Below are positions 33,026 to 35,954 of a stretch of 35,954 nucleotides of DNA, in pieces. A program made the position numbers and the translations under genes. Origin of the DNA: Salinisphaera sp. (GTDB lineage Bacteria; Pseudomonadota; Gammaproteobacteria; Nevskiales; Salinisphaeraceae); the NCBI GenBank assembly GCA_027858915.1, contig JAQIBT010000062.1:1-35954 (forward strand), given 5' to 3'. The first letter of the stretch is position 1; each line of letters begins with the position of its first letter. The notes under the pieces were generated by a model. The model had not been told where the DNA came from. It saw nothing but the letters and a program-made list of their open reading frames with translations, and did not search any database.

Positions 33026-34264
33026 ATGCCAAAGAAAGCACCGGAGCTTAGCGCGATCCAAGTCAAACGGCTGGATAAGCGAGGCATGCACGCCGTGGGG
33101 GGCGTGGCTGGCTTATTACTGCAAGTCGCCAAGGGAGGCTCGCGGTCGTGGATTTTACGTGTAAAGATCGGCAGCAAGCGCCGAGACGTTGGTTTAGGCG
33201 GATACCCGGACGTAACGCTAGCCCAGGCCCGAGACAAGGCGCGTGAGGCCCGCGAGAAGATCGTGCAGGGCATCGACCCGGTGGCCGAGAGAAAGGCGGC
33301 CAGAGACGCGCTGATCGCTTCACAGGCAAAGCGCATGACGTTTGCCGATGCCGCGCGACGCAAGCATGCGGCAATCGCATCGGAATTCCGCAATCTTCGG
33401 TCCCGCGCCAACTGGCTATCGTCCTTGGAACGGCACGTATTCCCATTGATCGGCGATATGGAAGTCGAAGATGTGGAACTGCCACACGTTCTATCGGTGT
33501 TGGAGCCAATCTGGAAGGAGAAGACCGAGACGGCCACCCGAGTACGGCAACGCATGGAGGCCGTGTTCAATTGGGCGATTGTCGGTAAATATCGCGAGAG
33601 TGCGAATCCGGCCGTGTGGAAAGGCAACCTTGCGGAAGTTCTGCCGAAGCCTGCCAAGATTGCCAAGGTCAAGCATCAACGCGCCCTAGACTGGCACGAA
33701 GTACCGGCGTTCATGGATCGACTCCGTAAGCGCGGCGGCATATCTGCCAAAGCGTTGGAGTTTGCGATTCTGACTGCTGCACGTTCGGGCGAAGTACGCT
33801 TCGCTACATGGGCTGAATTCGATCTTGATGCACGTATCTGGACCGTGCCGGAAGAACGGACCAAGAACGGTAAAACGCACACTGTGCCGCTAGCCGACGA
33901 TGCGCTGACCTTGTTAAAGGCATTACCGCGATTCGAGGGAAGCGATATCGTATTCACAGCACAGCGCGGCGGTTCGCTGTCAGACATGAGCTTGTCGGCA
34001 ATCACTAAGAAAATGAAGGTTGACGCCGTGCCGCATGGTTTCCGGTCTAGCTTTAAGGATTGGGCGCGTAACCGTTCTACTGCCGCCGATGAAGTGAGCG
34101 AGCTAGCCCTTGCACACGTCAATAGCGACGCTACACGAGCCGCTTATGCCCGTGACGAGCTATTACCCCAACGCAAGCGGCTGATGGCGCAATGGGCCGC
34201 GTTCTGCGCTGAGGGCGAGCCAGTGAAGGCCAGCGTGTCGAACATCGGGGAGGCACGGGCATGA
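33026..34264 (+). CDS. P4-type tyrosine integrase of the second island
   Basis: A 412-residue integrase with the DUF4102 N-terminal domain (about 5-95), a core-binding domain (105-205) and a catalytic domain. Catalytic residues are Arg253 in AARSGE, Lys283, His337 and Arg340 in PHGFR, His364 in LAH and Tyr374. All are present, so activity is likely. The start ATG at 33026 is preceded by TAGGA. The gene is next to a tRNA-end-like sequence at 32872, as expected for an enzyme that inserts its island into a tRNA gene. It differs clearly from the integrase near ssrA. The next gene overlaps its end by four bases. Confidence 0.93.
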   Translation: MPKKAPELSAIQVKRLDKRGMHAVGGVAGLLLQVAKGGSRSWILRVKIGSKRRDVGLGGYPDVTLAQARDKAREAREKIVQGIDPVAERKAARDALIASQAKRMTFADAARRKHAAIASEFRNLRSRANWLSSLERHVFPLIGDMEVEDVELPHVLSVLEPIWKEKTETATRVRQRMEAVFNWAIVGKYRESANPAVWKGNLAEVLPKPAKIAKVKHQRALDWHEVPAFMDRLRKRGGISAKALEFAILTAARSGEVRFATWAEFDLDARIWTVPEERTKNGKTHTVPLADDALTLLKALPRFEGSDIVFTAQRGGSLSDMSLSAITKKMKVDAVPHGFRSSFKDWARNRSTAADEVSELALAHVNSDATRAAYARDELLPQRKRLMAQWAAFCAEGEPVKASVSNIGEARA

Positions 34265-34797
34265 ATGAGCCAATAGATATATTTTGGCGTCGACATACCA
34301 ATTTGAAAGAGCGCGTCGGCCCTGTCGTGGAGGACGTGGGCGATTCAGAGGACAACACCGTAATCGGGAATAATTTGAGATTGGCAAGCAATCATCTGGC
34401 GTTAGCGGAATTCTTCGCCCACAACGGCGAAATCGGCCGCGCAAACGATTCGCTGCATTTCAGCGAACGGGTGTACGGGGCCGCACTATCCGGCTTGATG
34501 GAGCCGTCTGTTATCAGTGGGCATAAAGCCAGCACGGCACAATCTAAACGCGCTAGTCAGCCGCGAAGCGATCAGCAAGTTATAGAGATTATCCGTCTGC
34601 TTGCTATGCGCGACGAGCCCATAAAAGAACTGTGGAACGCGTTTCATGGCGACCTGGGCGCTGCTGGCCTGGATCCGGTCGAGGGCTTGGGAGGCAAAAA
34701 TGGCAAGAGCCTAACTATCTGGTACGAGACGGATGCCGGGCGTAGGGCAATGACAATCGGCACATTCGGCAACCGGATAAAGAAAGCAAGCCGCTAA
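34261..34797 (+). CDS. Unknown integrase-linked protein
   Basis: A 178-residue soluble protein I do not recognise. It has no signal peptide, membrane segment or cysteine. Residues 38-80 form a likely helical region containing LRLASNHLALAEFFAHNGEIGRAND. The half from about 100 carries DQQVIEIIRLLAMRDEPIKELW, then a Gly-rich part with a possible loop, GLGGKNGKSLTIW. The start overlaps the integrase stop (ATGA), so the two are made together. A role in integration, excision or island upkeep would be a guess from location. Confidence 0.7.
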   Translation: MNEPIDIFWRRHTNLKERVGPVVEDVGDSEDNTVIGNNLRLASNHLALAEFFAHNGEIGRANDSLHFSERVYGAALSGLMEPSVISGHKASTAQSKRASQPRSDQQVIEIIRLLAMRDEPIKELWNAFHGDLGAAGLDPVEGLGGKNGKSLTIWYETDAGRRAMTIGTFGNRIKKASR

Positions 34798-34871
34798 TTT
34801 CCACGATAGCCGGGCTAGCGTGCAATCGTAAGTTGAATAGGTCTCGAAGCAACCAACACGAGGCCGAAACA

Positions 34872-35087
34872 ATGCTTTCCTTCCCCAAGCCCATCAAGTT
34901 GAGCTCGAATTGCTCACGCTGGCCGCTGTCCCGGCTGGAACAGTACGAAGCTGAACGAGTCGGACACGAATACAAGCAGCGACTGCCAGCCGATGAAGTG
35001 TATTTAAGCGATTATCAGGTTGCAGCCCGTTACAACGTGCACAAAAACAGCGTATGGCGCTGGGCACGAGTCGGCGGGGGTGCGTAA
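34872..35087 (+). CDS. AlpA-like small DNA-binding protein, halves swapped
   Basis: A 71-residue protein built of two parts seen in AlpA/excisionase-like regulators of islands, but in reversed order. The first part, FPKPIKLSSNCSRWPLSRLE, is what normally forms the C-terminal wing and last helix. The second, YLSDYQVAARYNVHKNSVWRW (about 42-62), is what normally forms the N-terminal helix-turn-helix. The usual form would join the second part to the first. The ATG at 34872 follows GAGG; a TTG at 34833 is possible but adds only 13 residues and no HTH. Its stop overlaps the start of the next gene (TAATG). It may be a permuted regulator or a remnant of two copies. Confidence 0.6.
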   Translation: MLSFPKPIKLSSNCSRWPLSRLEQYEAERVGHEYKQRLPADEVYLSDYQVAARYNVHKNSVWRWARVGGGA

Positions 35088-35773
35088 TGGGACACCCCCA
35101 ACGAACGAACCCCGCCACCGGAGGCAACCGGCGCGGGGCTCAATATCAAAGTACTAATCAGCAATTCAATAATACCCCATCCGGCGACCCGCTGTCTGCC
35201 TTCATCCACGCGATGTGCGATGCCGGACTGTCGCCAAGCAATCCCGCCGAGATCGTCGGCGACGGTGATCTGCACCGGCTGCATCTGGAAGGCGACCGGC
35301 GATGCGACAAGAACGGATGGTGTGTTCTGCATATGGACGGCCGACCGGCTGGCGCTTTCGGTAGCTGGAAGGCCGGCGTATCTGGTACATGGCGGGCTGA
35401 TCGTCACATGCCTGTCAGCCAGGCGGATCGAGAGGCGATTGCACAGGCACGGCGAGAACGTGAGGCGCAACGAGAACGCGACCAACTCGCGGCGGCGCAT
35501 CGTGCGCTGGTGTTGTGGAACGAATCGACACGGCCCGACCTGGCGCACCCCTATCTGATCGCCAAGGGCGTGAAAGCGCATAGGGTTCGTCAGCATCGTG
35601 GCCAGTTGGTGCTACCGCTGTACGACTTCGACGCGACCTTATGCAGCTTGCAATTCATCGGCCCGGACGGCGACAAGAAGCTGTTACGTAACGGACGGAA
35701 ACAAGGCTGTTTCATTCCAGTGGCAGGCCGCATGCCTGCGTCTCGCGGTAAGCGTCCGGCCATCGCCCCTTGA
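35087..35773 (+). pseudogene. Primase-like island gene cut by IS66-type insertion
   Basis: The frame codes 228 residues, about 220 of them before the insertion. They resemble the N-terminal part of phage- and island-borne primase or Toprim proteins: a GDGDLHRLHLEGDRR segment, NGWCVLHMDGRPAGAFGSWK with W and G residues, a charged helix at about 112-140, then HPYLIAKGVKAHRVR, the LVLPLYDF strand and LQFIGPDGDKKLL. The Toprim and helicase parts that should follow are missing. At 35748 the sequence changes to an IS66-like end and the frame soon stops at 35773. The ATG at 35087 overlaps the stop of the regulator gene. The gene is therefore interrupted, not naturally short. Confidence 0.65.
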
Positions 35774-35954
35774 CTCGCGTTTGGGCGTTAGGCGCTAGAG
35801 TTGTTAGCAGAGAGCTCGTCTTTGACGTTCCAGGGCAGCAGTTCACAGACGCGACTGACCGGCAGATCGCCGATCCGCTCGAGCACATGCTTGAGCCAGG
35901 CTTCAGGATTGACGCCATTGAGTAGCGCGGTGCCGATCAGCGTGTAGACGCTCG
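35748..35954. mobile_element. IS66-family insertion sequence, one end
   Basis: From 35748 the sequence reads GTAAGCGTCCGGCCATCGCC, in the form of an IS66-family terminal repeat, which starts with GTAA. It is followed by the 3' end of an IS66 transposase gene on the minus strand. The eight bases before it, GTCTCGCG (35740-35747), would be the target duplication if a copy occurs at the far end, which is outside the window. Confidence 0.65.
35788..35954 (-). CDS. IS66 family transposase, C-terminal part
   Basis: The last 55 residues of a transposase entering from the right edge; the stop TAA is at 35790-35788. The readable part has VYTLIGTALLNGVNPEAWL and then LPVSRVCELLPWNV, which match the C-terminal domain of IS66 transposases (the ELLPWN ending is very typical). 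The catalytic DDE part lies outside the window. Confidence 0.8.
   Translation of the reverse strand, partial: SVYTLIGTALLNGVNPEAWLKHVLERIGDLPVSRVCELLPWNVKDELSANNSSA

Follow-up and report, generated by a model that had tools for sequence, protein, structure and literature searches.

Excisionases of the AlpA/Xis type have been associated with tyrosine integrases in the available portions of two papers (PMC11963761, PMC9376610). For the PICMI satellites, the partly available account describes AlpA as both required for excision and enough on its own to set it off, with satellite gene expression unchanged (PMC10803314). AlpA of GIsul2 is held to be a likely excisionase, and its overexpression has been used as support (PMC9376610). 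The PICMI type is defined by an integrase, an AlpA protein (PF05930 or PF12728) and a primase (DUF3987, DUF5906), together with integration beside fis and mobilisation by a helper phage. In canonical AlpA proteins, the helix-turn-helix (HTH) precedes the wing.

Are winged helix-turn-helix (wHTH) domains ever found in another order? Permuted wHTH domains are known from CA_C2195 and methionine aminopeptidase 2, where they are peptidase domains thought to recognise the substrate (PMC4000134, as far as its available text goes). The CIRPIN work, in the part available, counts winged-helix-like domains with those most often permuted in AlphaFold models (PMC12667903), and an unnamed relative may therefore be in such a set. 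A permuted AlpA or Xis protein was not found among the papers listed in searches of the literature on circular permutation. The initial annotation had considered that a permutation of so small a regulator would be new, which appears to hold for AlpA/Xis regulators; permuted wHTH domains as such are known from the peptidases. The protein of the present locus differs from these in being free-standing, 71 aa long and encoded beside an integrase, and in having canonical homologues that are recognisable by sequence.

The locus lies in the window, the whole stretch of DNA analysed (35,954 nucleotides). Two permuted homologues serve for comparison, one from the same genus (G007, a Salinisphaera halophila contig) and one from a different family of the same order (G083).

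33026-34264, plus strand: tyrosine integrase of the same element (Pfam Arm-DNA-bind_3, Phage_int_M and Phage_integrase; 90% identical to that of G007)
34261-34797, plus strand: ORF whose start overlaps the integrase stop (ATGA); no family found in Pfam or NCBIfam at E 10 or 1
34860-34863, plus strand: GAGG, probable ribosome-binding site read from the sequence, 8 nt 5' of the ATG
34872-35087, plus strand: circularly permuted AlpA/Xis-type gene, ORF of 71 aa plus TAA stop, ATG start
34881-34961, plus strand: wing half, residues 4-30, placed second in canonical proteins (38.8 bits to canonical profile 32-59; E8-11, E14-18 and H19-30 in the model)
34962-35000, plus strand: linker, residues 31-43, from the old C-terminus to the old N-terminus (length conserved to one residue; four residues common to the three permuted proteins)
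35001-35075, plus strand: HTH half, residues 44-68, placed first in canonical proteins (43.6 bits to canonical profile 4-31; H47-53 and H58-67 in the model)
35087-35773, plus strand: start of a primase-like gene (PHROG DNA primase families; aligned to the Toprim_3 protein of G007 over residues 2-220)
35788-35952, minus strand: C-terminus of an IS66-type transposase at the contig end (59.6 bits)

The gene order resembles that of PICMI as given in the available text, with integrase, an ORF overlapping by ATGA, alpA and primase in the same succession (PMC10803314). The ORF at 34261-34797 diverges between the window and G007, which recalls the variety of the iolg genes in PICMI (PMC10803314): blastp found no match between it and the ORF at the same place in G007 (L003 1789-2304, minus strand), and both neighbours are conserved. 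The window differs from PICMI in its permuted AlpA and in its primase, since the PICMI primases are described as DUF3987 and DUF5906 (PMC10803314), whereas the window fragment belongs to no Pfam family (E 0.01) and that of G007 is a Toprim protein. Among the three defining genes, the integrase is present in the window, the AlpA models score under their cut-offs and the primase fragment has no Pfam family. The G083 element (L007 7303-13947) holds an integrase, the permuted alpA, a DUF5906/D5_N primase and a terminase large subunit; it shares DUF5906 with PICMI but has the terminase gene too, and appears to be satellite- or prophage-like. A tmRNA gene lies at 16514-16874 on L007.

Is the window's copy of the element still mobile? 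The similarity of the primase-like gene to its G007 homologue stops near 35746 and the IS66-type C-terminus lies at the contig end. An insertion of this type probably cut the primase-like gene, and this copy of the element may therefore be mobile no longer, though the permuted gene is intact. Genes upstream of the integrase resemble those of minor pilins.

Order of the wing and helix-turn-helix halves

In AlpA-like terms, residues 4-30 correspond to the wing and the helix that closes the fold, and residues 44-68 to the strand and HTH that are N-terminal in canonical proteins. Against a profile of five canonical relatives (L002 and L015-L018), the window ORF matches positions 32-59 and then 4-31 (whole-ORF E 2.3e-24), the G007 protein 32-59 and then 5-31 (E 2.5e-23), and the G083 protein 24-58 and then 3-31 (E 1.1e-24), the first piece of the last beginning slightly upstream of its GTG start. 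Both halves of the window protein are homologous to the canonical AlpA/Xis wHTH (38.8 and 43.6 bits), but they follow each other as wing and HTH, not in the canonical order of HTH and wing.

A second profile was made from 34 distinct canonical proteins, one per locus, that span at least positions 7 to 53 at E below 1e-9, others being left out. With this profile, which leans to near relatives because the loci behind the canonical profiles were gathered with permuted queries, the native and best rotated orders score 40.2 and 85.0 bits for the window protein, 42.5 and 79.5 for G007, and 39.2 and 74.6 for G083. Of 60 shuffled sequences scored in every rotation, the best reaches 3.0, 3.9 and 5.5 bits, respectively, and the HTH half joined to 100 shuffled wing halves gives at most 44.7, 43.0 and 38.3 bits. 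Rotation raises the score of no protein among the 34 canonical ones by more than 3 bits.

The two-piece match and the rotation scores confirm, at the level of sequence, that the 71-aa gene encodes an AlpA/Xis-type wHTH in the order wing, linker, HTH; the initial annotation had proposed the swap of wing and HTH. The good start, ribosome site and overlapping stop that it pointed out are borne out by the ATG, the GAGG 8 nt before it and the TAATG in which the TAA of the permuted gene overlaps the ATG of the downstream gene. Phage_AlpA (PF05930) gives no match to the native window protein and 16.2 bits to the rotated one, against a gathering score of 21, and HTH_17 (PF12728) gives 14.1 bits native and 19.7 rotated, both below its gathering score of 27. 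Among the permuted homologues, HTH_17 stays below the cut-off of 27 for G007 (20.1 bits) and passes it for G083 (27.4 bits).

Relatives, the integrase slot and the number of origins

Where else is the wing-first order found? A database search, as had been suggested, recovered it in G007 (about 64% identity) and G083 (about 49%). A permuted-profile match (E 0.01) occurs in 10 of the 85 genomes searched in the order, and a full-length permuted gene in three of them, namely the window's own genome, G007 and G083. The wider draws, which overlap, had some match in 24 of 369 for the class and 28 of 398 for the phylum (both at E 0.01), and in 22 of 198 for one other family of the phylum (E 0.001); the only strong, stop-free, near-full-length match in them was the window's own gene. 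The HTH comes first in all 27 distinct places of these draws at which both halves were scored apart. Single-piece places whose locus was inspected had the canonical order against the canonical profile, one half only, or no match, and eight such places were left out of the reading (G836 twice, G911 twice, G843, G868 and G872 in the other-family draw, and G751:C5 in the phylum draw).

Canonical relatives outside the order come from Kandeliimicrobium, a Rhodobacter MAG, Halomonas, a Nitrosomonadales MAG, Paracoccus versutus pTAV4 and a Sinorhizobium plasmid. Those of Kandeliimicrobium, Halomonas and pTAV4, like the AlpA proteins of G008 and G012 within the order (PF05930/PF12728), are homologous to the window protein in both halves and have the HTH before the wing, whereas the window protein has the wing before the HTH, with a linker. 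Viral contigs held no permuted relative and none passing tblastn (queries P0002, A2, P0001 and P0003), genome contigs searched with P0002 had no match, and a sequence search of the PDB found none for the permuted protein. No permuted relative was found among phages in the 4 records obtained with P0002 at E up to 10, or in the 12 obtained with P0003 at E up to 1, all of them partial matches; in the two records inspected (H32 and H35) the match starts near the gene start. Plasmids likewise held no permuted relative in the 7 records found with P0002, nor among the best 20 of 45 found with P0003, and the matches inspected there (Paracoccus H1 and H12, Sinorhizobium H13) are all canonical.

Within the order, the window integrase finds a match at E 1e-60 in 9 of the 85 genomes. 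Identity to the window integrase is 90% for G007, 75% for both G012 and G008, and 61% for G083. Behind the integrase lies a permuted gene in G007 and G083 and a canonical AlpA gene in G008 and G012, that of G012 passing the Pfam AlpA cut-off of 21 bits with 22.1. In G029 this place is taken by a distant canonical AlpA (E 3.4e-9), and in G075 an AlpA-like gene is visible by eye, to which the canonical profile has no match; none was seen in about 1.5 kb behind the integrase in G036 and G047. In the window, G007 and G083, the gene thus stands near a tyrosine integrase, as genes of recombination directionality factors (RDFs) do. The DNA upstream of the integrase is shared by the window with G007 and with G012, and these three are therefore at the same chromosomal site; the upstream flank of G083 has no match to the window. 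The elements seen at this place carry either one permuted or one canonical copy, and two tandem copies were found in none; neither of the outcomes named by the initial annotation as refuting it was thus observed. With the canonical profile, the window, L007 and L008 give no further match that would point to an additional, canonical copy within the element. Elsewhere, the window's genome has a strong Phage_AlpA domain (79.5 bits) on a different contig (G000:C98:3002-3151), and the G083 genome also has a further AlpA domain.

Has the permutation arisen once or several times? By integrase, the canonical G012 is closer to the window and G007 than the permuted G083 is; therefore, either the AlpA module has been exchanged or the permutation arose twice. 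A tree of 37 reordered proteins (63 columns) is unresolved, with the three permuted proteins grouped in 0% of 200 bootstrap trees and their grouping not rejected (p-AU 0.169), and so does not decide between a single and a multiple origin. For one origin speaks the likeness of the linkers, which are equal in length to within one residue and have G31, R37, P39 and E42 in common.

Differences between the window and G007 genes at codon positions 1, 2 and 3 number 19, 16 and 38 over 70 codons. The NG86 estimates are dN 0.28 and dS 2.36, a ratio of about 0.12 that is rough, as pS (0.72) is near saturation. The codon changes suggest purifying selection on the permuted gene. Together with the homologues in two other species, this pattern upholds the initial view that the gene is kept and is not debris. 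All three permuted genes overlap the downstream start (TAATG, GTGA and ATGA).

Predicted fold and role of the permuted protein

The window protein was modelled with AlphaFold2 from an alignment of itself, the G007 homologue and the separate halves of four canonical relatives. The model (E8-11, E14-18, H19-30, H47-53, H58-67) has a pLDDT of 90.0 and a pTM of 0.75, with a pLDDT of about 86 for linker residues 31-40, values that are thin evidence on the packing of the halves, as both are present in two alignment rows only. A canonical Halomonas protein (pLDDT 90.6, pTM 0.67) has H6-13, H17-26, E33-36, E39-43 and H44-57, the same five elements in rotated order, and the window protein is thus predicted to form one confident domain with the canonical elements rotated. 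The confident single-chain model goes half way to answering the initial annotation's question of whether the two parts fold together or as swapped dimers.

The canonical model finds its best match in the GIsul2 excisionase 8c3t (Foldseek E 1.4e-3, TM 0.80; VIA Z 9.4 over 57 residues, 1.6 A). VIA also aligns it with BldC 6amk (Z 7.9; 52 residues, 1.8 A), Pukovnik Xis 4j2n (Z 7.6; 53, 2.1 A), RdfS 8dgl (Z 7.0; 53, 2.1 A) and lambda Xis 2ief (Z 5.0; 51, 2.8 A), all with Z under 8, which may mean merely a common arrangement. Of these, the GIsul2 excisionase (8c3t), RdfS (8dgl), lambda Xis (2ief) and Pukovnik Xis (4j2n) share the fold of the modelled canonical relative. The permuted model, in contrast, has no sequential Foldseek match below E 1 (lowest E 3.1 in the PDB and 1.3 in BFVD), and its best VIA-align score is Z 2.9 (2ox6_C, 40 residues, 2.5 A). 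Such a contrast is what a permutation predicts and is in itself no proof in three dimensions.

We consider it probable that the gene encodes a naturally circularly permuted AlpA/Xis-type wHTH, which most likely refolds in the usual way and serves as the RDF of excision. The new ends of the chain would lie between recognition helix and wing, the former termini having been fused through a linker of about 13 residues. The likeliest route is an ancient one that joined partial tandem copies, in which alpA would have been duplicated in tandem and fused, and the outer halves then lost. The chain would refold as a monomer to the usual small wHTH, bind to the attachment region of the integrative element that encodes it, and turn the neighbouring tyrosine integrase towards excision. 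A directionality-factor role is expected because AlpA drives excision in PICMI and is a likely excisionase in GIsul2, and the most likely role is that of excisionase in a satellite-like element with a PICMI-like gene order. Against an excision role we count the report, in the available text on GIsul2, that deletion of a segment including alpA left integration unchanged (PMC9376610).

Alternative readings and what the permuted gene means

That the N-terminal half is no wing and its resemblance is due to chance is barely credible. Models in Pfam, PHROGs and NCBIfam do match the window and G007 proteins in the HTH half only, but the wing is matched separately at 38.8 bits, and rotation adds 45 bits, compared with no more than about 5 when the wings are shuffled; the rotation and shuffle controls led us to reject this explanation. 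A recent remnant, in which a deletion between tandem alpA genes joined partial copies, was raised by the initial annotation and would leave the same order of halves. In G083, moreover, the frame just 5' of the GTG start (L006 1441-1485, plus strand) resembles part of the recognition helix. It lengthens the wing match by about 3 bits (42.3 against 39.2) towards recognition-helix positions, which is not significant and is possibly a faint trace of a lost first HTH. The same order is nevertheless found in two other species at about 64% and 49% identity, the codon pattern indicates that the gene is kept, and no second copy or outer halves lie in the DNA flanking the three permuted genes (0.9 to 3 kb per side), the canonical profile reaching at most 3.2 bits. 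With the conserved homologues, the codon pattern and the single copies at the site, a recent remnant is very improbable, and was rejected.

A second group of alternatives concerns function and assembly. The protein might be a transcriptional regulator of the element, acting at the integrase or primase promoter with no direct part in excision, which we think rather unlikely. According to the available text, the original proposal for AlpA was that it regulates transcription of the CP4-57 integrase (PMC9376610); the HTH matches include BldC and MerR-type families, and the permuted gene overlaps its downstream gene. However, alpA expression in PICMI induced excision and left the satellite genes unaltered (PMC10803314, available in part), and the best structural match of the canonical relative is an excisionase; both roles are possible in one protein. 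It is also doubtful that the chains form a domain-swapped dimer or filament in which the wing of one complements the HTH of the next. Through the cut the wing is no longer tied to the recognition helix, and a one-chain fold is compatible with exchange, but the single-chain model is confident even in the linker (pLDDT about 86 for residues 31-40). Protomers of BldC and RdfS are described, in the text available, as contacting one another through the beta wing-HTH region (PMC11963761); the cut lies near this region, and an altered or swapped filament is therefore conceivable. An extended proposal, to which we give a small chance, is a free-standing excision factor rebuilt as a directionality filament, with wing and HTH swapped between protomers, and with a permuted lineage that passes as a module from element to element, taking the place of canonical AlpA both beside related integrases and at the same site. 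Simple refolding agrees better with the single-chain model than a swapped filament does.

As relatives in two other species keep the swapped order, the gene looks like an inherited redesign of a known type of excision switch and not a broken gene. Its order exposes a blind spot: order-dependent family models detect at most the HTH half of the window protein, and sequential structure searches give nothing convincing. Elements that are recognised by an AlpA match can therefore be missed. The same slot, beside related integrases at the same site in one genus, holds a regulator of 55-75 residues in permuted and in canonical form. With this natural matched pair it can be asked whether a chain break between recognition helix and wing is just tolerated by a minimal winged helix or is put to use.
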